Of a stretch of DNA of 64,000 nt, positions 158 to 62,534 are shown piece by piece (the stretch's first letter is position 1; each line of letters starts with the position of its first letter). This stretch comes from an uncultured bacterium. GTDB taxonomy: Bacteria > Verrucomicrobiota > Kiritimatiellia > CAIVKH01. Where the stretch lies: NCBI GenBank assembly GCA_903906425.1, contig CAIVKH010000188.1, positions 1-64,000 of the forward strand, given 5' to 3'. Made by a program: the position numbers and the translations under genes. Under the pieces are notes generated by a model. The model searched no databases. It had not been told where the DNA came from and saw nothing but the letters and a program-made list of their open reading frames with translations.

Positions 158-1468
158 ATGAAGACAACACGATCCGCTTCCAACGCCGTTTCCCGCCGCA
201 GTTTTCTGAAAGCATCCGCGCTGGCCGCAGGCGCCATAGCCGGCTTCCCGACGATCATTCCGGCCAACGTGCTCGGCCCATGCGCTCCGAGCCGTCGAAT
301 CAACATGGCGACGATTGGAACCGGCGGACGCGGCACCGGCGATCTGCAGGGCATGATGGGATTTCCCGACGTTCGAATGCTTGCCGTTTGCGATGTGGAC
401 CGCTCACGCCGGCAGCGGGCGCAACAGATCGTGAATCAACATTACGGCGATGACGCCTGCAAGGAATACGCCGACTTCCGCGAGCTGCTTTCGCGCGATG
501 ACATTGATGCGGTCGTCATCGGCACACCGGAGAACTGGCACTCGCTGCTGACCATCGCGGCGGCAAAAGCGGGCAAGGACATTTACTGCGAAAAACCATT
601 TGCTCCGACCATCGCCGAAGGGCGCGCGGCGGCGGACGCGGTGAGGCGCTACAACCGCGTGCTTCAGGTCGGCAGCCAGGAACGGTCGCGAGCGCTTGGA
701 CGCTACGCCTGCGAACTCGCGCGCAACGGCCGGCTCGGCCGCATCCACACCGTGCGCGTGAACCTGCCCGCGGCCCACAACGAAATCGGCGTGCAGGAAC
801 CGCAGCCGGTGCCGGATGGTTTTGATTACGACATGTGGCTCGGCCCCGCGCCGTGGGTGCCGTACACGCCGAAACGCTGCCACGGTGTCTTTCGCTGGAT
901 TCTCGATTACTCCGACGGCGAGCTGACCGACCGCGGCTGCCACGTCGGCGATCTGGCGATGTGGGGCAACGGAACCACCCAAACCGGCCCGGTCGAGATC
1001 GAAGGCCGCGCCGATTTCCCGAAGGACGGACTTTGGAACACGCCCTTCGGTTACGAAATCCACGCAAAGTTTGCCAACGGCGTGAAGATGATCATCCAGG
1101 ACGTCGAGCCGCGCGGCGTGAAATTCGAGGGCGACGAGGGCTGGGTTTTCTACCACGTCCACGAAGGCAACATCGAATCCTCGGACGAGCGACTCGTCCG
1201 CGAGCCGATCAGGCCGGACGAACTCCACCTCTACGACAACACGAACGACCACTATCGGAATTTCATCAATTGCATCCGCAGCCGGAAAGAAACCATCGCA
1301 CCCGCCGAGGGCGGCCATCGGACGGCGTCGCTCTGTCATTTGGCAACCATCGCATGCATTACCGGCCGCAAGCTCCGTTGGGATCCCGTCGCAGAGAAAT
1401 TCAAGGGCGACGACGCAGCGAACGGAATGGTTTCCCGCGCGATGCGCGCGCCGTGGCGCCTGGCATGA
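158..1468 (+). CDS. Tat-exported Gfo/Idh/MocA family oxidoreductase
   Basis: A 436-residue NAD(P)-dependent oxidoreductase of the Gfo/Idh/MocA type, which act on sugars, inositols or related polyols. The N-terminus is a twin-arginine signal (RRSFLK at residues 13-18, then an Ala-rich hydrophobic stretch), so a folded, cofactor-loaded enzyme is probably exported. The Rossmann dinucleotide loop GTGGRG is at about 54-59 and the family motif EKP at about 145-147. The C-terminal half has the usual substrate-side alpha/beta domain. The ATG at 158 places the Tat signal at the very start. It stands alone, converging on ybeY with only 13 bases between the stops. Tat-exported members are common in PVC bacteria, often in sugar catabolism; the substrate cannot be read from sequence. 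The 157 bases upstream hold nothing I can recognise. Confidence 0.9.
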   Translation: MKTTRSASNAVSRRSFLKASALAAGAIAGFPTIIPANVLGPCAPSRRINMATIGTGGRGTGDLQGMMGFPDVRMLAVCDVDRSRRQRAQQIVNQHYGDDACKEYADFRELLSRDDIDAVVIGTPENWHSLLTIAAAKAGKDIYCEKPFAPTIAEGRAAADAVRRYNRVLQVGSQERSRALGRYACELARNGRLGRIHTVRVNLPAAHNEIGVQEPQPVPDGFDYDMWLGPAPWVPYTPKRCHGVFRWILDYSDGELTDRGCHVGDLAMWGNGTTQTGPVEIEGRADFPKDGLWNTPFGYEIHAKFANGVKMIIQDVEPRGVKFEGDEGWVFYHVHEGNIESSDERLVREPIRPDELHLYDNTNDHYRNFINCIRSRKETIAPAEGGHRTASLCHLATIACITGRKLRWDPVAEKFKGDDAANGMVSRAMRAPWRLA

Positions 1469-1481
1469 TTCGAATGTCAGC

Positions 1482-1937
1482 CTAGGGATGCGCCGGAGCC
1501 GGCCTGTATTGCCGCAGCCATGCGCGTTCTCGCTTGTGCATCCGCGCACGCATCGCCGGCGTGCGGTCGTCGAAGCCCGCGAGATGATCGAAGCCGTGCG
1601 CGACGTAAAACGCCAGTTCGCGCGAAGGCTCGCCCCTTCGCCGCGTCGCCTCGGAAATCGCGCGCTCGAAATTCACATAAATTTCGCCGCGCATTCCTTC
1701 GACGCCCGGCGGCGGCGGCAGAGAGAACGTGATGACATCCGTCGGCCCGCTGTGATTCAGGAATCGCTCGTTGATCCCGGAAATTCCCGCGTCGTCGGTC
1801 ACGACAATCGAGATCTCCGCCCAATCACCCGCGCGAAATTCGGAGATGTTTTCCGCCAGCCATGACGCGAAGTGGCGGACGTCGGCGGATGAAACGGGAA
1901 ACTTTCCTTGCGCGTTGCTGACCGCGATTTTCATCAT
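1482..1937 (-). CDS. ybeY: Endoribonuclease YbeY (rRNA maturation factor), altered metal motif
   Basis: A 151-residue YbeY-type metal-dependent endoribonuclease, which acts in 16S rRNA 3' maturation and ribosome quality control. The conserved sequence around the fold (DDAGISGINERFL, then GPTDVITF) is clear. The family metal motif normally has three His (HGxLHLxGyDH). Here it is HGFDHLAGFDD at residues 114-124, with H114 and H118 kept but Asp at the third ligand position and Asp also replacing the usual Leu. The ATG overlaps the phoH stop as ATGA, so the two genes are translationally coupled, the usual phoH-ybeY arrangement. Identity is secure from fold motifs plus synteny; full catalytic competence is less certain. 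Confidence 0.9.
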   Translation of the reverse strand: MMKIAVSNAQGKFPVSSADVRHFASWLAENISEFRAGDWAEISIVVTDDAGISGINERFLNHSGPTDVITFSLPPPPGVEGMRGEIYVNFERAISEATRRRGEPSRELAFYVAHGFDHLAGFDDRTPAMRARMHKRERAWLRQYRPAPAHP

Positions 1938-2905
1938 TTCGGATTTCGAACTTCGGATTTTCGGGTCGCGGCGTAGGCCTGAATTATTTTCTGCACCAGT
2001 TCGTGCCGCACGACATCCGCGTCGGTCAGTTCGGCAATCGCGACGCCTTCGATGTTCGCGAGCGTCCTGCGCGCTTCGAGCAGGCCGGAACTTTTGTGCG
2101 CGGGCAAATCAACCTGCGTCACATCGCCGGTGATGACGCATTTCGAATCGAAACCGAGCCGCGTGAGAAACATGAACATCTGTTCGTTGGTCGTGTTCTG
2201 CGCCTCGTCCAGAATCACGAACGCGTGGTTCAGTGTGCGCCCGCGCATGAACGCGAGCGGCGCGACCTCGATGACACCGCGCTCGATGTGCTTCTCAATT
2301 TCCTCCGGCGGCATCATGTCGTAGAGCGCGTCGTAGAGCGGCCGCAAATACGGCAAAACTTTTTCGCGCATGTCGCCGGGCAGATAGCCGAGATTTTCGC
2401 CGGCCTCGACGGCGGGCCGCGTGAGGATGATGCGGCTGACATCGCCGCGCAGAAGTTCCGACACGGCCATCGCCATCGCCTGATAGGTCTTTCCCGTGCC
2501 GGCCGGCCCGAGTCCGAAAACGCAATCGCAGCGGCGGATCGCTTCGAGATAGCGCATCTGCCCGAACGTGCGCGGAAACACCGGCGGCTTGCCCGGCGCG
2601 ACATCAATCCGGCTCGCGTACAATTTTTCGAGATCGGCCTCGCGTCCGTCCTCGAAGGCCTTCAGCGCAAAGAAAACTCCGTGCTCGTGCAGCACGACAC
2701 CGTGATCGCGCGCAAATTTCAGCGCCTCGAAATATCGGACGGTCCGCAAAATCGCCGCGTCGTCGCCTTCGATTTTCAGCCACGTGTCGCGCGCCGAAAG
2801 TTTGACGCCCAGCACGCCCTCGATGCGCGCCAGATATTCCCCGCGGCGTCCGGTCAGCTCCGCCGCCTCGCGCGGGTTGTCAAAATATATCGTCTTTTCG
2901 CTCAT
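1934..2905 (-). CDS. phoH: PhoH family P-loop ATPase
   Basis: A 323-residue PhoH/PhoL-type cytoplasmic ATPase, a predicted RNA-associated P-loop NTPase. An N-terminal region of about 100 residues precedes the ATPase core. The Walker A motif GPAGTGKT is at about 133-140, and a Walker B segment VILDEAQN follows about 100 residues later. The ATG at 2905 is followed downstream by ybeY with a 4-base ATGA overlap, the arrangement conserved in many bacteria and linked to rRNA processing. A two-copy palindrome array (2920-2966) begins 15 bases upstream of the start and separates phoH from vapC. Confidence 0.95.
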   Translation of the reverse strand: MSEKTIYFDNPREAAELTGRRGEYLARIEGVLGVKLSARDTWLKIEGDDAAILRTVRYFEALKFARDHGVVLHEHGVFFALKAFEDGREADLEKLYASRIDVAPGKPPVFPRTFGQMRYLEAIRRCDCVFGLGPAGTGKTYQAMAMAVSELLRGDVSRIILTRPAVEAGENLGYLPGDMREKVLPYLRPLYDALYDMMPPEEIEKHIERGVIEVAPLAFMRGRTLNHAFVILDEAQNTTNEQMFMFLTRLGFDSKCVITGDVTQVDLPAHKSSGLLEARRTLANIEGVAIAELTDADVVRHELVQKIIQAYAATRKSEVRNPK

Positions 2906-2919
2906 CGCGTCTCTTCATT

Positions 2920-2966
2920 TTCCAATGATTGGAATTTTTCGCCTTCGTAATTTCCAATCATTGGAA
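2920..2966. repeat. 32-bp-phased palindrome array, locus 1 (2 copies)
   Basis: Perfect 15-bp palindromes at 2920-2934 (centre G) and 2952-2966 (centre C), start-to-start 32 bp. It lies between vapC and phoH (both minus). The second copy overlaps the 3' end of vapC and provides its stop codon. Confidence 0.95.
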
Positions 2967-3383
2967 CTTCCGCAAGCGCGCGGCGGGAATCCAGTTCTCC
3001 AGCCGGAGTCCCGAGATGCGCGCAAATTCGCGTGTGTTATTGGTGACAAGAATCAGTTCGTGGCGCAGCGCCTGCGCAGCAATCAGCATGTCGTGCGCGC
3101 CGATGGGCGTGCCGCGTTTTTCGAGCACAATGCGGGTGCGGGCGTAAAGGTCCGAATGCGTTTCGTCGTAGGAAATGATCCGCAGAGGCAACAGAAAACT
3201 CTCCATCAAAGCGATGTTGTGCGCCGGACGCGCGCTGCGCATGACACCGTACCAAAGCTCGCTGTGGGTGATCGCGGAGATCGCGAGGGCGCCTGCGGGC
3301 ATCGCCTCGATCCGCGCCACCATTTCCGGCGGGCGGTACCGCATGAAATGAATACACGTGTCGGTGTCCAGCAGATGACTCAT
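2958..3383 (-). CDS. vapC: VapC-type PIN-domain ribonuclease toxin
   Basis: A 141-residue PIN-domain endoribonuclease toxin that cleaves RNA when released from its antitoxin. Acidic residues expected of the active site are visible: D6 (LLDTD), E42 (THSELWYG) and D98 (AHDMLIAA), with an N/E-rich segment near 114-119. The start overlaps the vapB stop (TGATG). The last residues (RKFQ) and the stop codon are encoded by a copy of the dispersed palindrome at 2952-2966, so the C-terminus appears to have been set or rewritten by that repeat. Targets cannot be inferred. Confidence 0.92.
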   Translation of the reverse strand: MSHLLDTDTCIHFMRYRPPEMVARIEAMPAGALAISAITHSELWYGVMRSARPAHNIALMESFLLPLRIISYDETHSDLYARTRIVLEKRGTPIGAHDMLIAAQALRHELILVTNNTREFARISGLRLENWIPAARLRKFQ

Positions 3384-3616
3384 CAGTCAAAACTTTTTCG
3401 TGTCTTTTGCAAGGGTTGCCGGCGACCGCCGCCGAAAACATCCTCATCGAATTTGCCGGCGGCATCGAGCATTGAGCGATAGGAATCTTTTGCGGGCAAC
3501 AAGACGATGACATTGCCCTGCCGCTTGATGAAGACGCGGTCGCCCTCGAAGCGAAAGTCGCGGGGAAGCCGCACCGCCTGACTGCCACCATTTTGAAATA
3601 ACCGTGCCGTCGTCAT
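3383..3616 (-). CDS. vapB: VapB-type AbrB/SpoVT-fold antitoxin
   Basis: A 77-residue antitoxin. The N-terminal swapped-hairpin DNA-binding domain shows the characteristic pattern ARLFQNGGSQAVRLPRDFRF, followed by a strand pair and an acidic/aromatic tail that should wrap VapC. It binds and inhibits VapC and, in this family, represses its own operon. It is first in the vapB-vapC operon and its stop overlaps the vapC start. A good promoter lies directly upstream (3625-3652) and leaves only 8 bases between the -10 box and the ATG, suggesting an almost leaderless transcript. Confidence 0.92.
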   Translation of the reverse strand: MTTARLFQNGGSQAVRLPRDFRFEGDRVFIKRQGNVIVLLPAKDSYRSMLDAAGKFDEDVFGGGRRQPLQKTRKSFD

Positions 3617-3624
3617 GTGAACGA

Positions 3625-3652
3625 TCTATACCTCTGCGTAGCTACAAGTCAA
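3625..3652 (-). promoter_or_regulatory. Predicted sigma70-like promoter of vapBC with embedded 8-bp palindrome
   Basis: Reading the minus strand, TTGACT (3652-3647), a 16-base spacer and TATAGA (3630-3625) match -35/-10 boxes. The spacer contains the perfect palindrome GTAGCTAC (3638-3645), a plausible VapBC operator for autorepression. The -10 box ends 8 bases before the vapB ATG. Prediction only. Confidence 0.55.
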
Positions 3653-3661
3653 CCGGCGTCA

Positions 3662-6600
3662 TCATGGCGCGGGCTGGACGCCGAGGCGGAACTGCAGAAG
3701 CGGCGCGGGCGGGGCGTTGGTCAGGTCGAAGACGGCGGTGAAGTTCGTCACGATGACGGGGGGATTCGTGAGCACGAGAAACGGCGGGTCGCCGGCGTTG
3801 CTGGACATTTGCAGCGAGTAGATGCGGTTGCTGACGTACGGCCAGCGGATGACGTAGCGCGACAGGATGGGATCGGCAGAGGCGCCCGTGATTCTCAAGA
3901 TGCTGTTCGAGTCGGTCGACGATGTGCCGGCGATTTCTTCGGCGGCGTTGCTGAAGCCATCGCCATCGGCGTCGCCGGCGGGATCGAGAACAAACACGCT
4001 CGCACTGGCGGCCGGGCCAATATTGCCGGCGGCGTCGCGCGGCCAGACGAAAACATTGTTCGTGGCGTTGAGTTGGAGGCCACCGAGCGGCGCGGGCGAT
4101 GACGGTGCAAATGTTCCGTTCGTCGTGCCGCCGCCATTGGTCGTGCTGAGAAAATATCCGGCAACTCCGAGGCCGATGTCGGTGAAACCGCTCCACGAAC
4201 TCGTGATGACGTTGCCGGCGAAATAATTTCCGAACGCGCTCGTCGCCGCGATGACAACCGCGCCGGTTGCCGAGGGCGCAACGTTATCCACCGCGAACGG
4301 CGCGCTCGTCACCGCACGGCCCGCGAACCAGACATCGGAAGGCGTGACGCGAACGAGAACATTCGATGAAAACGCGATGGCGGGCGCGTTCGTAGTCGGC
4401 CACAGGATCGCTAGCGCATTTGACGGAGCAGTCACGATACCGCCGAGCTGCTGCGTCGCCGCGTTGTTGATGCTGACGCCGCCTGTGGCCGCTGTCGCAG
4501 AAGTCACGAAAAGATTCGTCCACGTTGCGCCGCCGTTCGCGGAAAATTCCACGCGCAGAGAAACCGGATCGCCATCGGCATCGAAAATGGAGTTGCTGAT
4601 GGTCACGCTGCCGGAACCGTTCAGCGGCCACTGCCGCGCAAAATTGATCGCCGCGCGCGGCCGCGAATCCACGCGCATCGTGACGCTGACGATGTTCGTC
4701 GGCGCGACCGGATCGTTGCCTTCGATGCGGACGAGCGCACGATACAATCCGCCGTTGGTTGCGATGGCGGCGTTCAGCGCGCACGGGGCATTGCTTGCGC
4801 TGACGCCGGAGACGGACCCTGTGGGCGGCTGGACGGCCAGCCAGTCAGCCGCGAATGCGTCGGATGTGATCGTGATGTCGTCGAGATACCAGCCTTCGTA
4901 GTGCGTGTAATAATCCGCACCGAACCGGAACATGAGGATGATGTCCTGATTCGCGAACGCGCTGAGATCGAATGACGCTTGCTGCCATCCGCCGGTGCCA
5001 GCGAAGCACGGCGGATAGTCGGGCGCGAACGCGGATTCGGGATTTGGCGTGATCATGTAAGGATAGCCGCCGACAGGCGTGAGGTAATCAAATGATGCAC
5101 CGGCATTCGTCGAGATTTCAACGACCGCGCCATCCCACGCATAAACGCCGTGATCGAGTTCGCTCCAAATCCAATGCCAGAAATTCAGCACGGCGTTGCT
5201 GCCGGGATGAAGCGTCGGCGTGTAGAGCCGGTCGTCGGACGCGTCAGGATAAAGATGCGTCGAATCGTCGCCCTGATACCAGGAATGCGTTCCAGAATGT
5301 GCCCGGTACGTCGTGATGTGCCACAAGTCGAGGCTACCGTTGTGCGTCCATTTGTTCGTTCCGCTTTCCATGTCGTCGGTCAAATCAACACGGACGACGC
5401 GCGCGGTCCACGACAGTTGACCGTTGCCTGCGTTGCTGACGACGATACTCACGATGCCGGTCGTTCCGCTTTCGACAAGATTCGTGCCGAGGTCCGGCGG
5501 CGTCACGATCATGACCGGATACGCGACGAGAAAAGCGAACGGGCCGTTGGTGGAAGTGTTCGCTCCCGGATCGGAAGCCGTGATGAAATAGCTGAACTGG
5601 TCGCCGCAAGTGCCGGGCGCGGGAATCGTCGCGGTGAAATGATCGTTCGCATTCGACGCCATCGCGGCGCTCTGCCACGTGCCGCCGTTGCGCTGCCAGT
5701 GGAGCGTGGCGGACGCGACGGCGAGATTGTCGGTGATGACGGCATCAACGTTGAACGGCGCGGGACGCGGCTGTGGATTTGCGAGCGGAACATGCGCGAT
5801 GACCGGCGGGACGGGGAACGACCTGGCATCGCGCGGATTTGTCTGGTCGGCAAATTCCGCCTGATTGTTGAAGCCGTCGCGATCCATGTCGCCGGAAAGC
5901 GAATTCCCGATGCCGCCGAAATAGAGCATCTCCCACCAATCCGCCATGCCGTTGCCATCGCCGTCCTGAGTGGCGGGCAGATATTTCGCCACGGCGTTGT
6001 GCGACCGGCCCATCGAAAATTTCCCGCCGGGATTGTCGGCGACGTTGATCGAATCCGGCAGCCTCGCGCCATCGAGATACCACCCCGTGAACCGGTACAT
6101 CACTCCGCTCACGATCCCAGCCGGCGGCGCGGTGATCGTGTGCGCGATGCTGTTGGCCGCCCACCACGTCGTCGTGCTGACGAGGCCCGGCGGCGACGAG
6201 CTCTGCACGAGGCCGTAGGAATCGAACCGCCACTGCCACGTCAGCCGCGAATTTTCCAATGATTGAAAACTCACGGAATTGGAATTTCCAATGATTGGAA
6301 CACTGCCGCTGCCGGTCCAGCCGGTGCAGGTGTAGCCGGCGAAATTTTCCGTCCATGCGAACGCGGGGGCGGTCGCGATGACGGTGTTACCGGATGCGAA
6401 TATCGTCACACCGTAGGGCGGCCAGACCGCGCCGGCGCGCACGGGCGTGCCTCTGACCTCCAACGAGACGGCGGCGGTGACGCTGAACTGGTAAAGCATC
6501 GCCGGCGCGCCTGCGGGGCTGACGGCCACGAGGCCGTTGGTGGCCGCAGTGATGTAATAATGAACAACGGTGTTCTGCGGCTGCGCGGGGATGAAACCGC

Positions 6601-9067
6601 GATAGAGGCTATTGGAAAGCAGAGCGACGGCCGATGCGTTGAAATTGGTCGAGCCGTCCGTGTTCCACATCACGAAAAGCTGGTTCGTGTCAATCGCGAC
6701 GGCGGACGTGATCGTTGCGGTGACGGCATACGGATTGACGGTGTCGAAGGTGCTGGCCAGCGGCGTGTGAACGATGACCGGCGCAACCGGACCGCTGAGC
6801 ACGACCGCGTAGGGCTGCGGCCCGCTGGGAACGTTGAAGCCGCGGACTTCGATCCGGTAAAGGCCGCGCGCCGCGGCGGCGAGATCAATCCCCTCGATGT
6901 TGTTCGTGCGGTCCGGCGCGGACATGCCGCTCGCGAAATTCGTGACGCCATCCGGGCCGATGACGACGAGGTCGAGATCGTTCACGAGATTCTGGCTGCT
7001 GCCGGGAGTTCCGGGAAAATCGGACCAGCACAGCGTGACGCGAAACGCGTTCGTGCCGCCGACATTCACGGTGTAAACGTTCGTTGCGCCGGTCACCAGC
7101 GAATTGCCGTCGAAGAACGCCAGCGAGTTTGGCGCGGGCGGGAATAGCGTGTCTTCGGCATCAATCTGCCCCCATCCTTCGACGCTGTTCGGCCGCGGCA
7201 GCGGCGGAATTTCGCGATACGAACCGGTGCCATACTGCCCGGGCGTGAGGGAGCGTGCGCCGTTGACCAGCGCGGCCTTGATCAGAGCGGCACTCGGATT
7301 CGTCACGCCGGCCCGGTCCGTGAAATACTGGCGGAACAATGTCGCGCAGCCAGCGGACAGCGGCGTGGCCATGCTGGTGCCGCCATCAATCATGTAATTC
7401 GAGTTGTCCGGCGCAGGCCCCCAACTGTAGCCGGCGATGCTCGAGTGTGTGGAAATGATGTCGGTTCCCGGCGCGACGATGTCGGGTTTGACGCGGCCGT
7501 CGAGGCACGGCCCCCGCGAAGAAAACGCGGCCATGCCCTGATGAACGCCGTCGTATGGCTGTGATAGGAGGTCGAAGACGATCGGGTTCATGAAATAGCC
7601 GAAGTCAATGTAGTGGTAGTCCGACGCCTCGCCGGCGTTGTGGAAATTTTCAGATGCGCCGACGGTGAGGGAATTCTTCGCCGTGCCGGGCGAATCCATC
7701 GTGCCGGGATTGATCACGCCGTTGCCGTCGTTGTCATAGCCGTCATTTCCGGCGGCGATGCAAACGAGCATGTCGGGATGGTTCCACATGAACTCGTCAA
7801 CGTCCCGCGCCTCGGATGTGTAGAAGCCGTAGGCGGGCGAGCCCCAACTGTCGGAGTGAATGTGCGCGCCGTTGGTGAGCGCCTGAAGGAAAAGATCGCC
7901 GAGATTTGCAGGCAGTCCGCCCAGCCCGCCGCCGCTGTCGAGCACGGATTGCATGACGAGTTGCGCGCCGCTGGCAACGCCGCGATATTTTCCCCCGCTG
8001 GCGGTGCCGTCGCCGAGGACCGAGCCGCAAACATGCGTGCCGTGGCCGTACGGATCACTCCAGTTGTTCGCGCGGCCCAGCGCGATGGCCGCCTTCACGC
8101 GGCCCATGAAATCGGTGTGCAGGTTCGTGATGTCGCCGGTGTCCAGCCCTGTGTCGGCAACGGCGACGACCTGCCCCGTGCCGGTCAGCCCGCGCGCGGT
8201 CCAGACGTTCGTGACGTTCAGCCGGGGGCCTTCGACCGCGCGGTTGTTGAAGAGTTTTGGCGGCACGTATTCTTCGATCCACTGCACCGACTCCAGTGTT
8301 GAAATTTCAGGAATGGCCGCGGCGGGAATCTCCGCGCGAACGCGGCCGAAATTTGAATTCCGGACCGGATCAATCTTCGTCGCGCCGCGGGCCGCAAGTT
8401 CTTTAGCGACCGGTTCGACCTCGTTTGGCGTGAACGTGCTCACGTCCACCAGCACCTTGCCTTCGCGTTTCGCCGCCAGCGCCGGCTGGATTTTGTATTC
8501 GGCTTTGTACGGCCCGATCCATTGCACAAAAGGCAGCGCCGCGACGCGCCGCAGGGCCGCCACGTCCATTTTCACCGCAAACGCGTTGTTCGGAACGTAG
8601 CCGCACAAAACTGCGCCGGCGTCCGCCAGTTGTTTTTTGTCCTCTTCATGAACAGGCCCGCCGAACTGTACGATCCACGCCGTCGAGCGCGCCGCGGGCA
8701 GGGTAGCGGCCCGGTCGATCCAGTCGCGGGCTGGCGTGCCGGCCTCCGTCTTTTCGGACGTGTCAATCACATGCGTGACGAGCCGGATTACGTGATTTTC
8801 GTCGCGCGGTTCCCCGATCATTTTTCCCTTCGCAACGACAGCGGGATTGGCGGCCGCAGCGCGATTCGTCACAAGAATGTTCGCCGCCGCGCTCATCTTC
8901 GCCGGCGAGACGGCTGGCGCACGCAGGCCCTCGGCGGTTTTTTTGCGCGGGCCGGACGCCGTTTCAAGCCCCGCCGGGATCCGCCACACCATCCATGCCG
9001 CCAGCAGCAGCAACGCGCACGCGACCGCGATCCACCACTTCCTTTGCTGATTGGTGTTTGTGGGCAT
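3662..9067 (-). CDS. Secreted subtilisin-like (S8) serine protease with long C-terminal beta-domains
   Basis: An 1801-residue exported protease. I use the ATG at 9067 rather than the in-frame TTG at 9073. An N-terminal hydrophobic helix (about residues 10-28) is a signal or anchor. After a propeptide-like region come the S8 triad Asp305 (VADTGLDTG), His342 (GHGTHVCG) and Ser565 (GGTSMATP), with an oxyanion Asn in AAGND. C-terminal parts include a jelly-roll domain (WSDFPGTPG), an Ig-like segment, a TGW/GSVP beta-domain, Asp-rich thrombospondin-type Ca-binding segments (DGDGNGMADWW; DADGDGFSNAAEE), a MAM-like domain and a final beta-sandwich tail. A two-copy palindrome array (6254-6300) lies in frame inside it. 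A related protease is at 20285-23668. Substrate unknown; the adjacent giant protein is a candidate. Confidence 0.92.
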   Translation of the reverse strand: MPTNTNQQRKWWIAVACALLLLAAWMVWRIPAGLETASGPRKKTAEGLRAPAVSPAKMSAAANILVTNRAAAANPAVVAKGKMIGEPRDENHVIRLVTHVIDTSEKTEAGTPARDWIDRAATLPAARSTAWIVQFGGPVHEEDKKQLADAGAVLCGYVPNNAFAVKMDVAALRRVAALPFVQWIGPYKAEYKIQPALAAKREGKVLVDVSTFTPNEVEPVAKELAARGATKIDPVRNSNFGRVRAEIPAAAIPEISTLESVQWIEEYVPPKLFNNRAVEGPRLNVTNVWTARGLTGTGQVVAVADTGLDTGDITNLHTDFMGRVKAAIALGRANNWSDPYGHGTHVCGSVLGDGTASGGKYRGVASGAQLVMQSVLDSGGGLGGLPANLGDLFLQALTNGAHIHSDSWGSPAYGFYTSEARDVDEFMWNHPDMLVCIAAGNDGYDNDGNGVINPGTMDSPGTAKNSLTVGASENFHNAGEASDYHYIDFGYFMNPIVFDLLSQPYDGVHQGMAAFSSRGPCLDGRVKPDIVAPGTDIISTHSSIAGYSWGPAPDNSNYMIDGGTSMATPLSAGCATLFRQYFTDRAGVTNPSAALIKAALVNGARSLTPGQYGTGSYREIPPLPRPNSVEGWGQIDAEDTLFPPAPNSLAFFDGNSLVTGATNVYTVNVGGTNAFRVTLCWSDFPGTPGSSQNLVNDLDLVVIGPDGVTNFASGMSAPDRTNNIEGIDLAAAARGLYRIEVRGFNVPSGPQPYAVVLSGPVAPVIVHTPLASTFDTVNPYAVTATITSAVAIDTNQLFVMWNTDGSTNFNASAVALLSNSLYRGFIPAQPQNTVVHYYITAATNGLVAVSPAGAPAMLYQFSVTAAVSLEVRGTPVRAGAVWPPYGVTIFASGNTVIATAPAFAWTENFAGYTCTGWTGSGSVPIIGNSNSVSFQSLENSRLTWQWRFDSYGLVQSSSPPGLVSTTTWWAANSIAHTITAPPAGIVSGVMYRFTGWYLDGARLPDSINVADNPGGKFSMGRSHNAVAKYLPATQDGDGNGMADWWEMLYFGGIGNSLSGDMDRDGFNNQAEFADQTNPRDARSFPVPPVIAHVPLANPQPRPAPFNVDAVITDNLAVASATLHWQRNGGTWQSAAMASNANDHFTATIPAPGTCGDQFSYFITASDPGANTSTNGPFAFLVAYPVMIVTPPDLGTNLVESGTTGIVSIVVSNAGNGQLSWTARVVRVDLTDDMESGTNKWTHNGSLDLWHITTYRAHSGTHSWYQGDDSTHLYPDASDDRLYTPTLHPGSNAVLNFWHWIWSELDHGVYAWDGAVVEISTNAGASFDYLTPVGGYPYMITPNPESAFAPDYPPCFAGTGGWQQASFDLSAFANQDIILMFRFGADYYTHYEGWYLDDITITSDAFAADWLAVQPPTGSVSGVSASNAPCALNAAIATNGGLYRALVRIEGNDPVAPTNIVSVTMRVDSRPRAAINFARQWPLNGSGSVTISNSIFDADGDPVSLRVEFSANGGATWTNLFVTSATAATGGVSINNAATQQLGGIVTAPSNALAILWPTTNAPAIAFSSNVLVRVTPSDVWFAGRAVTSAPFAVDNVAPSATGAVVIAATSAFGNYFAGNVITSSWSGFTDIGLGVAGYFLSTTNGGGTTNGTFAPSSPAPLGGLQLNATNNVFVWPRDAAGNIGPAASASVFVLDPAGDADGDGFSNAAEEIAGTSSTDSNSILRITGASADPILSRYVIRWPYVSNRIYSLQMSSNAGDPPFLVLTNPPVIVTNFTAVFDLTNAPPAPLLQFRLGVQPAP
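6254..6300. repeat. 32-bp-phased palindrome array, locus 2 (2 copies, inside a gene)
   Basis: An imperfect copy at 6254-6268 (right arm TTGAAA) and a perfect one at 6286-6300, 32 bp apart. This is the only array in the window lying wholly inside a coding sequence, the S8 protease at about residues 922-938. The reading frame is kept; the copies encode VPIIGN and FQSLEN. Confidence 0.95.
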
Positions 9068-9125
9068 GATCAAAGTTACTTCATTTCATCGGGCGAGACA
9101 TCGTCAGGTTTCGCGCGGCGCAATT

Positions 9126-9172
9126 TTCCAATGATTGGAAATTTGCGCGACGGTGGTTTCCAATCATTGGAA
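9126..9172. repeat. 32-bp-phased palindrome array, locus 3 (2 copies)
   Basis: Perfect copies at 9126-9140 (centre G) and 9158-9172 (centre C), 32 bp apart. It sits between the giant PKD/ASH gene (stop at 9190) and the S8 protease (start 9067), both on the minus strand. Confidence 0.95.
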
Positions 9173-9189
9173 CTCTGGCTGTGGGGACC

Positions 9190-12100
9190 TCATGGCAATC
9201 GTAATCGGAAGAATTGTGAATAGAAGGGCGCGCGGTTGGTGAGCATGAGCATCGGACCTCCGCCGGCGGGGCTGTTGGTGACGATGTCCCATGTGGCGTC
9301 GCCGGTGATGTTGGTGGTGGATTCGAGCACGAACGGGGAGGCCGCGGCCGGCCAGGTGATGACCGCGCCGTTCCTGTAGCCATCGAATTGCACGTCGGGC
9401 GCGACGACGAAGATGTTGAACGACATGTCCGCACCCAGCGACGGCTGGCCATCATCGTCCACATGAACGGTGACGGTGTTGGTCGTGCCGAAGTAATCCG
9501 CCGTTGGCATCCACGTGAAGACGCCGCTGTAGCGGTCGAGCAGCGCGTCGGGCGGCGCGCTGACGAGCGAGAAGGTGAATGCGTTGGCGGGAATATCCGG
9601 ATCCGCTACGACGTTTGTGACCGACAGTAGAGCGAGCGGATAGACGGAGCGGTCGGCCGTGGCGGCGAAGACGGGGCTGCGGTTGACCTCCGTCACATAA
9701 ACGGTGAATGAATTTGTCGCGGCAACCGGCGGGAGGCTGGCTTCGCCGACGACGGTGGTGACAGTGTACGTGCCGGGACCCTGGCCCTCGTCCGGCGCCC
9801 ACGATATCACGCCATTGGTTGGATTGATCAGCATCCCCGCCGGCGCGTTGAGCAGGGCATAGGAGAGAATGGACGGCGGGACCCCCGCGCTGACTTGCGC
9901 ATTAGCCACGACCATGAGCTGCATTTCGGGGACGGTCTGATCGTCGAGCAGCGGCATCTCCGCCGTGGGAACACCCGTCCCTGTCACAGGAATCGCCGGG
10001 CTTTCAACCGTGCTGGCGAATGTCAGGTCATAACTTTGTACGCCTGTGGCCACCGGGGCAAACCGCACGGTGAGATTCGACGAACCGTGAGCGGCAAGAT
10101 TGAACGATGCGTTACCGACAATCTCGAACGTGCCGCCAATTTCGGCGGAGCCACTGGTGGCGAAGTCGCCGAGATTAGTCACGACGAACGTTGCCTGCAC
10201 GCTCTGGCCGGTGACAATAAAGCCAAAGGCATAAGCCGATGGAGTGACGCCGAGCGCCGCAGGCGCTCTCACATAAATTCTGAATGTTGTATCCGCGCTC
10301 AGCGGTGGTAAGCCGTCATCGGTCACACGCACCGTGATGGTGTTGGAAATACCCGCCACGCTTGCATCCGGGGTCCATGTGAGCACTCCGCTGATAGGAT
10401 TGATCTGCATGTCACCTGGCGAATTGACGAGTGAGAATGTCAGCACATTGGCGGGCTGGTCGGGATCGGACGCAACATTGGTGACCGTGACGAAATCACC
10501 GGGGGAAACGACGCGATTCGAAACGGACGCCAGAGACGGACTGCGATTTACTTCTCTAACATAGACGGCAAATGAGTTCGTCGCGGCAAGCGCAGACATG
10601 CCTTCTGCGATCACAACGGTCGTCACGATACCTGTACCTGGCCCCTGGCTCTCATCCGGCGTCCATGAGATCACGCCATAAATTGGGTCAATATGCATTC
10701 CTGCCGGCGCATCAAGAATGGCATAGGTGAGAGCCGGCGGCTGAATGTCGCCGAGGACTTGTGCATTGGTCATGACCATAAGTTGCATTTCGGGAATCGT
10801 CTGATCGGGAATGTAAGGCAGCACCGGCATCATCACCCCCCTGCCCGTGACTTCATTTGCAATTGTTCCGCCCGTGCTGGCGAAGGTCACGCTGTCCGTG
10901 TATGAGACATATCCCTGCGGGGAGAACCTGACCGTAATATTGGTCGAGTCATGTGGCGCAAGGTTAAACAAAGGATCACCTATGATGGCAAACGCACTGC
11001 CGACCGTCACCGTGCCCGCGGCTGCCAGATCACCATAATTAGTCACGACGAAGATGCTATCGGAATATGTACCGACCAGCACGGGGCCAAAATCGTAGCC
11101 CGCGGGACTCACACCGACAGACGCTGGCAATAGTGCAACGCCACTTACTGCGCCCGTCACGGTGCCGCCGTCGCTGGAGATGATAAATTCGCTTGTGCAT
11201 GCGCCCTGTAAATAGGGCTGGAAACTTATCGTGATGACATTCGTCGCCCCCGGATCAATACTGAACGAACTGCCGTCTGCAATCGCGAATTGAGCACCCA
11301 TGTCAAAGGATGCGCTGCCTGTCAACGTCAGACATCCTGTGTTCACGACCGCTAGACGCAGATTGCTGCTCTCGCCGACCAGCGTTGGACCGAATACCAG
11401 CGACGTCGGATTTACAAAAAGTTGCGGTGGACAATTTGTGGCGGTGATGTAAGCCAGTTGCGTATTCGTGTCCGCGCCGACAGGTCCCTGTGCGATCAAT
11501 TGAACAGTCCGTATGCCGGTGACTGTGAAAGCATGGCTTACGATCGCCCCCGTCACGTTGCTTGCTGCGCCATCGCCAAATGACCACACGCGGTTCGTGA
11601 TCGTACCCGTAGAAAGGTCGGTAAAAGTGACAGAGAACGGGACCTGACCGGTACGAACATCCGCAACGAAATCAGCGTGGGGAATAAGTGCTCCGATGCC
11701 TGTTACGGGAATCACCAGATATCCGGTACTATCGACAACAAACAATTGCTCGTTGAATGCACCCACATTCGGCGGAGTGAAATTGATCAAAATATTCGTC
11801 GCGGCATTCGCATCAACACTGAACACAGCATTACCGGCAACCGAGAATGCTCCACTAAGATAGATCACCCCGGCAAGCGTCCCTCCTCCGCTGTTTGTTA
11901 CAGTAATGTTCATCTGCGCAGTATGACCTGCCGCCACAATACCAAAATCGAAGTTAGTCGGACTTACTCCGAGAATCGGTGATGCAGGCGGCGTCATGCC
12001 GACACCTGTGACAACGCCTGTCGCATTGCCACCGCCGCTGATGACGATAAAATTGTTTGTGTAACCACCCTCTGATTGGGGCGCAAAATCGATCGTGACC

Positions 12101-15100
12101 ACAGTTATCGCACCAGAATCAACGGCAAACGGGCTGCCGGACACAATAGCAAACGGACCGCCAACCGCAACTTCACCTGTCAACACCTCGCATCCCATGT
12201 TTGAGACCATTATATCCAGACTTTTACCACCCGGCACTGACACCTGACCAAAATCCAGTCTCACAAGATCAATGGCCAGTTGCGCCGGGCAATTCGTGAT
12301 GACAATGAAATCTGTCCGGGAGTTGGTAGCCTGGCCAAGCGGGCCTTGCACGACCAATTGAATCGCCCTTACGCCAGTGTTTGTGAAAGTATGTGTCACG
12401 GCCGATTCGATTGTATTACTCGATGCACCATCACCAAACGACCAGTATCTGTTCGTGACTATCCCGGTTGACATATCCGTGAATGTCACGACCAACGGAA
12501 CTTGTCCCGTCCGGATATCAGCGGCAAAATCAGCACAAAGCAGGGCTGACCCGGTTCCCGTAACCGGATTAGTAGCGCCGCCACCATTGCTGGTGAAAAT
12601 CACATTGTTACTGAACGTCCCATCTGATATCGGTGCAAAGCTAATCAAGATGTTTGTCACACCGTAGCCTGCCATGCTGAACGATCCATCGCCGATCACC
12701 GCAAATGCGCCACCTACAGTCGTTGTCCCCATAAGCGTGGATTCGCCGAGATTCGTCACGATGAATGCCGTCTGCACGGCTTGTCCCGTGGCGACGACTC
12801 CAAAATCATAGTCGGCGGGAGTTACGGCGAACTGTGCCGGCGTGATCGCCATCCCGATCACCGTCCCCGTCATGCTACCTCCGTCGCTCATAAGATCGAA
12901 CTCATTCGTAAAACCGCCAGATGTCAACGGCTGAAAGCGGATCGTTATATAATTCGTCACACTTGGCGCAATGGAGAAGGGTGTCTCAGACACGATCGCA
13001 AACGCGCCGCCGACAGCAGCAGAACCCTTCAGATTCAGGCACCCGATGTTAGCAACAGCAATGCTCAAGTCACTACTCCGACCAACCGTCACAATGCCAA
13101 AGTCCAACGGCGAGGTGTCAACGAGCAATGACGGAGGACAATTCGTTACAACAATGAGTCCCACCTGCGCATTTGTATCTGCTCCGACAATCCCATCAAC
13201 AATTAATTGCACAGTATTGGTGCCAGTGGTCCAATAGGTATGCGCCACGATCTTCCCTGTGGCATTACTTGTTGTTTCGTCACCAAACGACCAGAAACGA
13301 TTCGTGACTATGCCGGTGCTTGTATCAGTGAATGCGACGACCAACGGCACTTCGCCAGTATGAATATCGGCGACAAAATCCGCGAGCGGTATAACGGCTC
13401 CTACACCCGACACTGGGATGTACAGTTCACCGCCATCGCTTGAGAATGTTACCCAATCACCGAATGCTCCTTCCGTTGGAGGCGTGAATCCAAATAGCAC
13501 GTTTGTCGCTCCATGCCCCGCTAACGAGAAAGAGCCGTCACCAATGACTGAAAATACGCCGCTGACAACTGTTGTTCCGGTAAGCAAGGAATCTCCAATG
13601 TTTGTTATGGCAATGGATATTTGTGCTGTCTGGCCTGTGACAACCACACCGAAATTGCAGTTTGTCGGATTTACGCCAATTAGTTGCGGTGTCAGAACTG
13701 CCCCCATGACAGTACCTGTCACTGTGAGAGCGTCACAGGCATACATAATCTTGTTTGAATAGATGCCATACGCCATTGGCAAGAAACTGATCTCGACAAG
13801 ATTCGTCGCGCCGGGAGATATATCAAAAGGGCTTCCATTTACGACTGTGAACGGACCGCCGACAGAAGCCCAACCGTGCAACACCATACATCCGTCATTT
13901 GCTACGGCAAGTGTCAAATTGGAGCTTAGTCCGGGCTGGACACGGCCGAAGTCAAGCGGATCAGGAGCGATGGACAGACGCGGCTGGCAATTTGTGCACA
14001 CGATACAACCGATTTGATCATTCGTGCTCGTACCGAGTGGACCTTGGACTATCAGCTGAACGGTATTGGTACCCACACTTGTGTACACGTGCTGCACGAC
14101 AGTTCCTGCTACACTGCTCGATTCCCCATCACCGAACTCCCAGCGACGATTCGTTATCGTACCCGAGGACTGATCTGTGAATATAACTATGAATGGAATC
14201 TGCCCCGTCCAAACATCTGCTTCAAATGCAGCATGAGGCATGATCGCTCCGACACCCCAAAATGGGAGTGCTTGCTCCCCGCCATTACTGTCGAAGACTA
14301 CGTTCTGGCTCATCTGGCCTTCTGTCGAGGGCGTGAATGTTACTATAATGTTCGTCGAGCCATGGCCGGCTAAAGTGAAGGAACTATCGTCGCGAATTGC
14401 GAATGGACCACCCGCGGTTATAGTTCCGGAAAGCGTGGAATCACCGTAGTTCGTCACCCACAGACAGGTCTGTGCAGTCTGGCCGGTGGCCACGACCCCA
14501 AAGTCATAATAAACAGGGCTTACACCTAGCACGGCCGGCGAAAGAGCTACGCCGATAACAGTACTTGTGGCACTTCCGCCACCGCTCATCACAACTGCCT
14601 GATTCGTGTAGCCTCCCGCAATTACGGGACGGAAACTGATTCCAATCACATTGGTCTCGCCAGGTGACATTTCGAAAGAACTCCCTGACACTAACACGAA
14701 AGGTCCGCCAATGTTAACTTCACCGGTCAATACCTCGCAGCCGACATTTGCAATCAAGAACGTCAAATCATTGCTTTCTCCTGCCACAAGCGTGCCGAAG
14801 TTCAGCAGCGCAGGACTGGCCGATAATAGTGGCGGACAATTCGTAGCAACGATGAAACCCATTTGGATATTTGTATCTGCATTGATCGGATCTTCCACGA
14901 GCAACTGAACCGTATATGTTCCGGCGGCAGCATAGACGTGCGATACGGCTGAAGACATTGTGTTGCTCGCACCGCCGTCCCCAAAAGACCACGACCGGTT
15001 TGTGATGACACCGATGGAATGATCCGTGAATGTCACAGCAAGTGGAACTTCACCGGTCCGAACATTGGCCATGAAGTCTGCGTGCAGCAGGGAGGAGCCC

Positions 15101-18100
15101 AATCCCGTGGCAAGGTTCGTCAAGACGCCGCCGTTACTTGTAATAACGATCTCATTAGTGAATCTGCCGACCGCTTGCGGACGGAAGCTGACCGTGATGC
15201 GATTCGTTTCGCCAGAAGCAACATTGAAGGGGTTCCCATTCGCAATTACAAATGGTCCACCTACAGTTGCCGCACCAGTCATTGTCATGCATCCCATGTT
15301 CACGATAATCAGATCAAGATCATTACTTTGCCCGACATCAACCAAGCCAAAACTACTTGTTATGGGACTGGCTAATAGAAGAGGAGGACAATTTGTGGCG
15401 ACTATGAATGCCGGCTGAATATTCGTATCGGAGCCTAGCGGGCCTTGTGTAATCAATCGAACGGCATGACTACCAGTGTCCGAATATACATGTGTCACGA
15501 TCAATTCAGCCGTATTACTCGTCACACCGTCGCCAAAAGACCATAGCCGTCCAGTGATCGTGCCGTGAGACAAGTCCGTAAAAGTGACTGCAAACGGGAC
15601 CTGACCTGTTCGGACATTTGCAGAGAAATAGGCATGTGGCATGATGGCCCCATTGCCCGTGACGAGGCTCATGAAATCGCCGCCTTTGCTTGTCAGCACC
15701 AACTCCGTGGCGAAAGTTCCTCCCGACTGCGGCGCGAACTCGACCACGATGTTTGTCGTCCCTCGACCGGCCACCACAAAAGAACCGCCACTAATGACAG
15801 AGAACGGGCTATCGACCATCGCCACGCCACTGAGCGCCGATTCCCCATAATTCGTAACCACGAAGACTGCCTGGACAGTCCGTCCCGTCTCGATGGTTCC
15901 AAAGTCATAACTCTGTGGATTTACACCCATCGCTGAAGGTGTAAGTGCCACACCAGTGACGCCACAGGTCGTGCTGCCGCCATCGCTAATTATGACAATA
16001 CTGTTCGTGAACCCACCCCCAGTCATTGGTCGGAAACTGATCGCCAATAGGTTGGTCACCCCGGAAACATTATTGAAAGGACTACCCCCTGTAATCACAA
16101 ACGGCCCTCCACCTGACGCGGTTCCATTCAGTGATTCACAACCCAAGTTCACAAGCGCCAGTTTCAATTCGTTACTCGTTCCGACAGTCACTGCGCCGAA
16201 GTTTAGTTGCGAAACACTAACAGACAGTACTGACGGACAATTAGTCGCGACGATGAAATCCGGTTGTATATTCGTGTCGGCGCCGGGCGGCCCGTCTACG
16301 ATCAATTGGACCGCATTCATGCCGGTCGAAACATATGTGTGCGAGACCATTGTATTCGCCGTGTTACTTGTTGAGCCATCACCAAACAACCAATTACGAT
16401 TCGTCACGGGTCCAGTCGAACAATCGGTGAATGTCACAACAAATGGTACCTGCCCCGTTCGCACATCGGCCACAAAATCCGCATGTAGCGGCGGCATTCC
16501 CACGCCTGTCACGGGATTCGTTGAATCACCGCCACTACTCGTGAATATAGCGCTATTGCTGAATACCCCTTCCACCAAAGGTAAAAAACCGATTACTATA
16601 TTGGTTGTCTGCCCTGCATCCAGATTGAAAGAGCCATCGCCAATGACAGAAAACGCACCACACACGATAGTCGTACCAGTGAGTATGGATTCACCTTGAT
16701 TCGTAACTACGAACGACGTCTGCACCGACTGCCCTGTGGCCACAATACCAAAATCGTAGTTATCAGGACTTACCATTAGCCGCGGTGCATCCAATCCAAC
16801 GCCAGTCACAACAATCGTTGCGTTCCCACCTTCGCTTGTGATCGCAAGCTCATTTGTAAAGCCGCCCCGAGACTGCGGCTGAAAACTGACGATAATATTG
16901 CTTGATGCCCCGGAAGAGAGATTGAATGCACTGCCTGTAACTATCGCGAAGGGATCGGCGACGGAAGCCTCACCCACCATCGCCAGGCATCCGGCGTTTT
17001 GAACCGTCAGGTTGAATTCACGCGTATGTCCGATAATGACACTTCCGAATTCCCACAAAAGAGGACTGACAGCCAACTGCGATGGACAGTTGGTGGCAAA
17101 GATCAGGTCTCTTTGGATATTCGTCTCTGAGCCAAGAGGCCCTTCGACAATCAGCAGAACTGTATTGGTCCCAGCCGACATGTAAGTGTGTGATAAGTTC
17201 AAATCCGTCGTGCTGGTCATGGTCCCGTCTCCAAACGACCAGATGCGGTTAGTTATAGTCCCTATGGAATAGTCCGTGAAATTGACCGTGAAGGGTATTT
17301 GGCCGGTTTGAGCATCCACGGCAAAGCTCGCGCGGGGAAAATGAGCACCTGCTCCTGTGACCGGATTCGTGGATGTCCCACAATCGCTGGCAAAAACGAC
17401 ATCATTGTTCGCCGAACCGTCTTCGAGTGGCGCAAATCGGATCACAATATTCGACGCTTGATGGGGAGCGAGAGCAAAGGCCCCATTGCCAACGATGGCG
17501 AATATCCCACTCACCGTAGCCGTTCCTGCCAAAGCCATCTCGCCGCGATTTGTCACAACGAACACGGCTTGCGACGTCTGCCCAACCGCCACTGCGCCAA
17601 AATCGTGGGTCGCCGGACTCACATCAAGCATAGGCAACGCAATTCCAGCGACCGTACTTGTTGCAGTGCCACCATCACTAATTATGGATACTCTGTTCTC
17701 ATATTCGCCAGCTGTAGGCGGCAGAAATCTGATCGTTACGGCGTTTGTTTCGCCCGCTGCGAGTGTGAAAGGAGTTCCAGCCAGTACCTCAAATGGTCCG
17801 CCGACAACCACCGATCCTGTCAACGTCAGGCAACCGATATTCATCACCGTCAATTGCATATCGTTTGTCTGACTCGTTATGATGGTTCCAAAATCCAGTT
17901 CTGTCTGGGCAACGAATATCTGTGGTGGACAATTCGTGACGACAATGTAGTCGGTCTTCATGTTAGTGGCGGCACCAATCAACCTCTGAGCGATTAACTG
18001 CACTGAATACGTGCCGGCTGAAGTGTAGGTGTGTGACACGATTCCAAACATCGTATTACTCGTAGTGCCGTCGCCAAAGGACCAAAGGCGGTTTGTTATC

Positions 18101-20204: not shown

Positions 20205-20282
20205 TTCCAATCATTGGAAAACCGGCGCACCCAAACTTCCAACCATTGGAAAATTACGCACCGCAACTTCCAATGATTGGAA
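20205..20282. repeat. 32-bp-phased palindrome array, locus 4 (3 copies)
   Basis: Copies at 20205-20219 (perfect), 20237-20251 (variant AACCATT) and 20268-20282 (perfect). Intervals are 32 and 31 bp; this is the only 31-bp step in the window. It lies upstream of the giant PKD/ASH gene and just after the stop of the second S8 protease. Confidence 0.95.
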
Positions 20283-23762: not shown

Positions 23763-23841
23763 TTCCAATCATTGGAGGCCACGCCGCCGCACTTCTCCAG
23801 TCATTGGAAAATCCGGCCGCGCAAATTTCCAGTGATTGGAA
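23763..23841. repeat. 32-bp-phased palindrome array, locus 5 (3 degenerate copies)
   Basis: Copies at 23763-23777 (last base changed), 23795-23809 (CTCCAGTC form) and 23827-23841 (CCAGTG form). All three deviate from the consensus yet both intervals are exactly 32 bp. It sits between the aldo/keto reductase stop and the S8 protease start (both minus). Confidence 0.9.
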
Positions 23842-25987: not shown

Positions 25988-26034
25988 TTCCAATGATTGG
26001 AAATTTGCGCGACCGCATTTTCCAATCATTGGAA
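25988..26034. repeat. 32-bp-phased palindrome array, locus 6 (2 copies)
   Basis: Perfect copies at 25988-26002 (centre G) and 26020-26034 (centre C), 32 bp apart, in a convergent gap between the glycosyltransferase (plus) and the membrane protein (minus). The spacer closely resembles that of locus 3 (both start ATTTGCGCGAC). Confidence 0.95.
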
Positions 26035-29417: not shown

Positions 29418-29464
29418 TTCCAATGATTGGAAAAATGCGGCCGCGTGATTTCCAATGGTTGGAA
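29418..29464. repeat. 32-bp-phased palindrome array, locus 7 (2 copies)
   Basis: Copies at 29418-29432 (perfect) and 29450-29464 (variant ATGGTT), 32 bp apart, in the divergent gap between the nucleoside-hydrolase gene and the respiratory operon. The rest of the gap up to 29621 holds two A8 tracts (29510-29517 and 29535-29542), 25 bases apart, and nothing else I recognise. Confidence 0.95.
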
Positions 29465-33760: not shown

Positions 33761-33807
33761 TTCCAATCATTGGAAGACTGCCTCCCGGCCACTTCCAATC
33801 ATTGGAA
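33761..33807. repeat. 32-bp-phased palindrome array, locus 8 (2 copies)
   Basis: Two perfect copies, 33761-33775 and 33793-33807 (both centre C), 32 bp apart, starting 14 bases after the stop of the respiratory operon. It forms the left edge of a gene-free repeat island. Confidence 0.95.
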
Positions 33808-34527: not shown

Positions 34528-34574
34528 TTCCAATCATTGGAAGGAGGCGCTTGGGTAACTTCCAATGATTGGCA
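34528..34574. repeat. 32-bp-phased palindrome array, locus 9 (2 copies)
   Basis: Copies at 34528-34542 (perfect) and 34560-34574 (variant ending GGCA), 32 bp apart, ending 7 bases before the GH97 stop codon. It forms the right edge of the repeat island. Confidence 0.95.
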
Positions 34575-38291: not shown

Positions 38292-38338
38292 TTCCAATGA
38301 TTGGAAAATGCGGACGCGCAAATTTCCAATCATTGGAA
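38292..38338. repeat. 32-bp-phased palindrome array, locus 10 (2 copies)
   Basis: Perfect copies at 38292-38306 (centre G) and 38324-38338 (centre C), 32 bp apart, about 70 bases upstream of the PQQ-propeller start and 21 bases after the end of the nucleotidyltransferase remnant. Confidence 0.95.
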
Positions 38339-42295: not shown

Positions 42296-42374
42296 TTCCA
42301 ATGATTGGAAATCACGAAACGCAAAACTTCCAATCATTGGCAGTCACGAAAAGCAAAATTTCCAATGATTGGAA
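42296..42374. repeat. 32-bp-phased palindrome array, locus 11 (3 copies)
   Basis: Copies at 42296-42310 (perfect, G), 42328-42342 (variant ending GGCA) and 42360-42374 (perfect, G), both intervals 32 bp. It sits in the divergent gap between the kinase and the giant PA14/CotH gene. I see nothing else in that 295-base gap. Confidence 0.95.
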
Positions 42375-51960: not shown

Positions 51961-52007
51961 TTCCAATGGTTGGAAGTTTTCGGCGCGCAAGTTTCCAATG
52001 ATTGGAA
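51961..52007. repeat. 32-bp-phased palindrome array, locus 12 (2 copies)
   Basis: Copies at 51961-51975 (variant ATGGTT) and 51993-52007 (perfect), 32 bp apart, in a convergent gap between the giant PA14/CotH gene and the small lipoprotein gene. Confidence 0.95.
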
Positions 52008-55339: not shown

Positions 55340-55386
55340 TTCCAATGATTGGAAACCAACGCGAGGCAAATTTCCAACGATTGGAA
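55340..55386. repeat. 32-bp-phased palindrome array, locus 13 (2 copies)
   Basis: Copies at 55340-55354 (perfect, G) and 55372-55386 (variant AACGATT), 32 bp apart, between the heparinase-like gene (stop at 55413) and the GH97 gene (start 55319), both minus. Confidence 0.95.
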
Positions 55387-57324: not shown

Positions 57325-57371
57325 TTCCAATGATTGGAAAAACTGCCGCCGCAAATTTCCAATGATTGGAA
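57325..57371. repeat. 32-bp-phased palindrome array, locus 14 (2 copies)
   Basis: Two perfect copies, 57325-57339 and 57357-57371 (both centre G), 32 bp apart, in the divergent gap between the heparinase-like gene and the TPR protein gene. Confidence 0.95.
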
Positions 57372-59460: not shown

Positions 59461-59507
59461 TTCCAATCATTGGAATTTTGCGCCGGCGCTTTTTCCAATG
59501 ATTGGAA
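59461..59507. repeat. 32-bp-phased palindrome array, locus 15 (2 copies)
   Basis: Perfect copies at 59461-59475 (centre C) and 59493-59507 (centre G), 32 bp apart, in the divergent gap between the coiled-coil gene and the GHMP kinase gene. The spacer core GCGCCGGCGC is itself a palindrome. Confidence 0.95.
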
Positions 59508-62487: not shown

Positions 62488-62534
62488 CTCCAATCGTTGG
62501 AAAAACCCGCGCCGCAAACTTCCAATCATTGGAA
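62488..62534. repeat. 32-bp-phased palindrome array, locus 16 (2 copies)
   Basis: Copies at 62488-62502 (variant CTCCAATCGTT) and 62520-62534 (perfect, C), 32 bp apart, in the convergent gap between the CDF transporter and the GrpB-like gene. Confidence 0.93.

Follow-up and report, generated by a model that had tools for sequence, protein, structure and literature searches.

The uptake sequences of Neisseriaceae (DUS) and Pasteurellaceae (USS) are built on one short motif, repeated a great many times, which is not a palindrome (PMC1939737) and which works singly. They are reported to originate by point mutation in existing sequence, at permissive coding and non-coding positions, to be spaced on the scale of DNA tracts, to differ as dialects between genera and to be depleted in acquired DNA (PMC1939737, PMC2397512, PMC3630211); for Neisseria, the copies have been argued to arise by recombination and not by point mutation (PMC2397512). 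REP and REPIN elements, with their tyrosine transposase (RAYT), are palindromic doublets found in hundreds to thousands of copies, mostly extragenic, and REPINs are reported to lie at random within extragenic space (PMC3116915). The sites of SlmA, Noc and MatP are palindromic and dispersed over the chromosome, and number in the tens. A literature search for the motif described here, for the peptides it encodes and for repeats in Kiritimatiellota returned nothing relevant, and no paper on such arrays was found.

The window, by which we mean the whole 64,000-nucleotide stretch that was analyzed, contains 35 sites with two or fewer mismatches, where 0.1 would be expected by chance, and these fall into 16 arrays. 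One array lies inside a protease gene. The others are listed here without strand, as none is assigned to an array; the gene names in the first line were read from sequence.

2920–2966: two-site array between PhoH-like and PIN-like genes
9126–9172: two-site array, intergenic
20205–20282: three-site array, intergenic
23763–23841: three-site array, intergenic
25988–26034: two-site array, intergenic
29418–29464: two-site array, intergenic
33761–33807: two-site array, intergenic
34528–34574: two-site array at a gene end
38292–38338: two-site array, intergenic
42296–42374: three-site array, intergenic
51961–52007: two-site array, intergenic
55340–55386: two-site array, intergenic
57325–57371: two-site array, intergenic
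59461–59507: two-site array in the N-terminal part of a small predicted gene
62488–62534: two-site array

The product of the protease ORF matches Pfam Peptidase_S8 with an E value of 3e-40 and also carries a MAM domain. The locus is organized as follows.

3662–9073, minus strand: S8 (subtilase) protease gene that includes a MAM domain and contains the array; identified by ORF and Pfam; further genomes of the class carry orthologues
6254–6268, no strand: palindrome copy 1, TTCCAATGATTGAAA, one mismatch; minus-strand reading FQSLE(N); site 2 in gene order; substitution rank P 0.005
6269–6285, no strand: 17-bp spacer, native coding sequence (SNSV..); substitution not raised, P 0.22
6286–6300, no strand: palindrome copy 2, TTCCAATGATTGGAA, perfect; minus-strand reading VPIIGN; site 1 in gene order; substitution rank P 0.012

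The preliminary description had placed two in-frame copies 32 bp apart in this S8 protease, encoding GSVPIIGN and SFQSLENS inside a module reading TCTGWTGSGSVP...LTWQW. Both statements held, with the added detail that the first copy is imperfect: it has one mismatch to TTCCAATSATTGGAA, the second copy matches perfectly, and the start-to-start distance is 32 bp. The description had also stated that relatives share the spacing from GSVP to LTW.W, and this proved correct when tested in orthologues. Seven distinct site-less orthologues, at approximately 38–44% identity, aligned without gaps from GSVP to LTW.W (L023 is the same protein as L003, so the two were counted once), as exemplified by GSVPIIGNSNSVSFQSLENSRLTWQW opposite GSVPVSGATNSVVFTILTGSALTWHW. 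No indel was found across the array columns in these seven proteins, and the clean insertion of about 47 bp that would have refuted replacement was looked for in the protease orthologues and was absent.

Substitution was assessed by subtracting orthologue-to-orthologue identity from array-to-orthologue identity and ranking the difference over windows of each gene; the P values are thus within-gene ranks, the windows overlap, and the orthologues are fairly distant. In the protease, divergence from the orthologues was raised at site 1 (rank P 0.012, lowest 1.2% of windows) and at site 2 (P 0.005, lowest 0.5%). Substitution was not raised in the flanks or in the spacer, for which P was 0.22 and identity to orthologues was 0.40 compared to 0.44 between orthologues. 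Because the spacer does not stand out, we conclude that it is old DNA and that only the two sites were rewritten; a native spacer also argues against the 47-bp array having been imported or converted as a block at this locus. What the data show at the protease is base substitution at two 15-bp sites, without change in length. The earlier claim that the palindromes replaced codons is therefore supported at the protease, with exceptions elsewhere (TrpF, AroB). As to its further claim of selection or conversion as opposed to transposition, site-by-site substitution is shown, and selection, drive and conversion confined to 15-bp sites cannot be distinguished.

Arrays within other genes were analyzed in the same manner. 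In UDP-glucose dehydrogenase the array columns are ungapped in seven relatives, with P of 0.005 and 0.037 at the sites and 0.12 at the spacer. Ffh gave a similar result, none of 18 orthologues being gapped and P being 0.042 and 0.002 at the sites and 0.10 at the spacer; the region is also ungapped against solved bacterial Ffh proteins. In ThiD of G013, which belongs to another family, the region aligns without gaps to three PDB chains and to almost every relative, and substitution is raised at one site (P 0.016 for site 1, 0.11 for site 2, 0.69 for the spacer); the sites are common to the siblings G040 and G097, and PE..LLGR is retained. A within-genus DNA comparison was possible for a coiled-coil-like gene of G040, the array region of which is gapless against G013 and G095, both partly matching. 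We conclude that native codons were pre-adapted, being half-matching before they were rewritten, as in Ffh, where the native VPxIG.RA motif became VPMIGKRA. The Ffh spacer is non-canonical and scores below every intergenic spacer, and the protease spacer is weak, as expected if protein constraint preserved the old codons.

Substitution in place is not a universal rule, as demonstrated by TrpF of the window's genome (G000; L225, C26:4686-4732), which has approximately 14 extra residues at an array with a canonical spacer, and by AroB of G013, which has 7 extra residues at its array. TrpF also hosts arrays in G013, G040, G029, G022, G045 and G055, in two neighboring loops and with extra residues; we regard it as a recurrent host gene in which arrays were acquired independently in several genera.

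Arrays were also observed at the N-terminal ends of proteins. In G040 (L284, C66:100001-120000, at 317-18412), roughly ten sulfatase-like genes lie in a row, and nearly every one has an array right after its Tat-type signal peptide (FPRLGK..FQGLE); at C173:8839, C1:6461, C2:53164 and C22:5776 of G000 arrays code for part of N-terminal signal-peptide-like stretches (FPIIGILVLAFFQSLE).

The whole genome (6.66 Mb in 383 contigs) contains 2752 perfect sites and none matching a reversed control pattern, a copy number that likens the motif to DUS and USS. For 377 perfect sites we examined the sequence 31–33 bp away: a partner was present with two or fewer mismatches for 370 and with three or fewer for 372 (267 with none, 89 with one, 14 with two, 2 with three, and a further 1 with four). 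At control offsets, no partner with fewer than four mismatches was found for the same 377 sites. The doublet is thus nearly obligatory, its members about three helical turns apart and helically phased. Arrays in 880 kb of G000 mostly contain 2–4 sites, at a spacing of 32 bp, sometimes 33 and rarely 31, and are flanked by A/T tracts and then G/C approximately one helical turn out. Complementarity between the halves of the spacer was 0.35, below the null of 0.415, and the arrays may therefore have polarity.

The layout of the arrays was determined from 880 kb sampled of the 6.66 Mb of G000 and from 400 kb of G013, both being MAG sequence on which a home-made gene caller was used. Among the 175 arrays that were classified, 160 lie outside genes, often just past a stop codon. 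This position speaks for reading them as transcription signals, that is, terminators, insulators or promoter operators at gene boundaries. We consider this reading very unlikely. Gaps of at least 100 bp are occupied at similar rates whether the adjoining genes converge, diverge or are co-directional; both gaps around a span of 600–1000 bp are occupied in only 1 of 55 cases; spacer polarity has no relation to gene strand (P 0.85); and in G045 (L078, read from sequence) a separate hairpin resembling an intrinsic terminator adjoins the site.

Neighboring arrays avoid one another. In G000, 8.5% of neighbors are closer than 1.5 kb compared to 25% expected when occupied gaps were shuffled within size classes, and the coefficient of variation (CV) was 0.62 compared to 0.86 (P<0.001); the avoidance was replicated in G013 (P 0.009). 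The longest sparse stretch is nearly array-free for approximately 35 kb (0–35 kb of contig C8 of G000; L041, L056) and carries the DISARM genes DrmA, DrmB, DrmC and DrmMI plus an IS630-type gene. One array, with sites of 3 and 1 mismatches, lies within the DrmMI gene, the alignment of which to relatives is too gappy for indel calls.

Spacers that are identical at 16 or more of 17 positions occur more frequently than predicted. A column shuffle gave a large excess, which shrank under nulls that preserve the halves but remained. Pairs with near-identical spacers tend to share their center bases and not their outer flanks. In some intergenic arrays the shared stretch is a complete 47-bp unit ending at the palindrome edges, and so the data suggest that some copying, or array-to-array conversion, of this unit may take place among intergenic arrays. 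Such copying fails to explain the coding arrays, because their spacers are native.

A second alternative is that the arrays are REPIN-like miniature elements moved as a unit by a RAYT. Like REP and REPIN elements they are palindromic doublets with an extragenic bias and a high copy number, some share the 47-bp unit bounded by palindromes, and TrpF is longer by about 14 residues at its array. We nevertheless consider this alternative very unlikely. The protease, Ffh, UDP-glucose dehydrogenase and ThiD have arrays without a change in length and with native spacers, which is substitution and not insertion; for coding arrays, the gapless orthologues and native spacers largely refute a REPIN/RAYT origin, but TrpF and the shared 47-bp units still allow for insertion at some arrays. 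The spacer halves, being less complementary than chance, would form no REPIN hairpin, and the phasing is fixed at 31–33 bp. A Y1 transposase was not found in the array-bearing G021, G050 and G039 and is common in array-free genomes, so that it is unlinked to the arrays. Finally, the arrays are evenly spaced, in contrast to the random placement reported for REPINs. The two Y1 genes that were checked in G000 have no array nearer than approximately 1.3 kb. A canonical IS200-type Y1 transposase (E 2e-38) was observed in an array-free genome (L328, G072 C160:14425-14790).

Doublets of TTCCANNNNNTGGAA were found in 45 of 97 relatives, with counts of 0 to 1349 per genome. The spacing is the same throughout and the center bases differ by genus, being ATSAT in G000, AGSCT in f7, and AGGTT or ATGTT in f15. 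The relatives G068 and G013 are identical over thousands of bases (100% match) to the named records RGIG6649 (Kiritimatiellae, sheep rumen) and CAISWQ01 (LaPlata-15m-a_bin-260); G000 belongs to this class as well. Named records with three-site arrays are labeled Kiritimatiellae, Lentisphaerae, Verrucomicrobia, Spartobacteria, PVC-group or 'uncultured bacterium'; we take the labels other than Kiritimatiellae to be old names for Kiritimatiellia. Only one exact-dialect doublet was present in 2.9 million viral contigs, and we therefore do not consider the array a phage element.

We propose that an array serves as a double binding site for a sequence-specific DNA-binding protein, as yet unidentified. 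In this proposal, base substitutions would occur in place at two 15-bp spots where codons already half match, leaving the native spacer untouched; a dimeric protein would bind cooperatively to two palindromes, or to more, along one face of the DNA; and a genome-wide drive or selection, inferred and not shown, would keep making and preserving doublets. With more than 1000 recurrences, and with base changes instead of insertions within genes, something in the cell appears to write the pairs into the genome. Because a doublet requires many substitutions, the intermediates must carry some advantage. A doublet made by substitution and recognized by a protein is the likely explanation, although recognition is inferred in the absence of binding data, and this assessment does not extend to our guess at the driver. 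Against the model stand the unidentified binder, the extra residues in TrpF and AroB, and the shared 47-bp units, which would not be expected from stepwise substitution alone.

Of the known systems, uptake sequences come closest to these putative protein-recognized doublets, and self-DNA uptake coupled to molecular drive is our leading guess for the driver, albeit one that we would put at slightly below an even chance. The competence machinery would prefer doublets, and each point mutation toward a site would spread by transformation. In its favor are a point-mutation origin (TrpF and AroB being exceptions here), siting at permissive positions, dialects, distances comparable to DNA tracts and scarcity in acquired DNA, all features reported for uptake sequences. 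Stop-to-stop ComEC frames from 36 relatives fell into two classes, of approximately 510–650 and 770–910 residues; the long class is more frequent in array-bearing genomes (15 of 18, compared to 6 of 18 array-free genomes, P 0.006, uncorrected for kinship). The presence of ComEC is itself uninformative, as it was found in 35 of 36 genomes, array-bearing or array-free, the missing case being an array genome. A point against it is that the uptake sequences known so far lack palindromic symmetry and act singly, unlike these palindromes in phased doublets.

Palindromes and doublets are better suited to a chromosome-organizing protein, which we regard as possible and nearly as probable a driver as uptake; both uptake and binding are inferred. 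A nucleoid protein on doublets every few kilobases would bridge or anchor loops, and selection on chromosome shape would make and space the sites. The obligatory doublets with 31–33 bp phasing suit a cooperative dimeric protein, and the arrays are evenly spaced in G000 and G013 and independent of gene direction, a regular dispersal of the type expected of organizer sites. They resemble the SlmA, Noc and MatP sites in being palindromic and dispersed over the chromosome, and differ in that there are over a thousand doublets and no identified binder. The organizer reading would require strong selection at each of more than 1000 doublets, and to our knowledge no nucleoid protein has over a thousand discrete sites of such information content.

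A bolder reading, which we raise only as a possibility, is that the doublets constitute a chromosome code common to the class Kiritimatiellia: doublets of phased palindromes at intervals of a few kilobases, introduced by substitution into intergenic DNA and even into essential genes, and read by an undescribed, inferred cooperative binder whose specificity shifted between genera. If our explanation is true, a whole bacterial class includes members with up to more than 1000 two-part sites per genome, and protein sequences, Ffh included, have been altered to keep a DNA pattern. The recurring peptides FQSLE, SNHWK and PMIG in these proteins would then be footprints of DNA sites and should not be mistaken for protein motifs. 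The arrays would represent another case in which self-marked DNA for uptake originated, or else a nucleoid system with more defined sites than any known to us. With lineages that carry from 0 to approximately 1350 doublets and use differing dialects, it would be possible to study by comparison how such a system originates and is lost.
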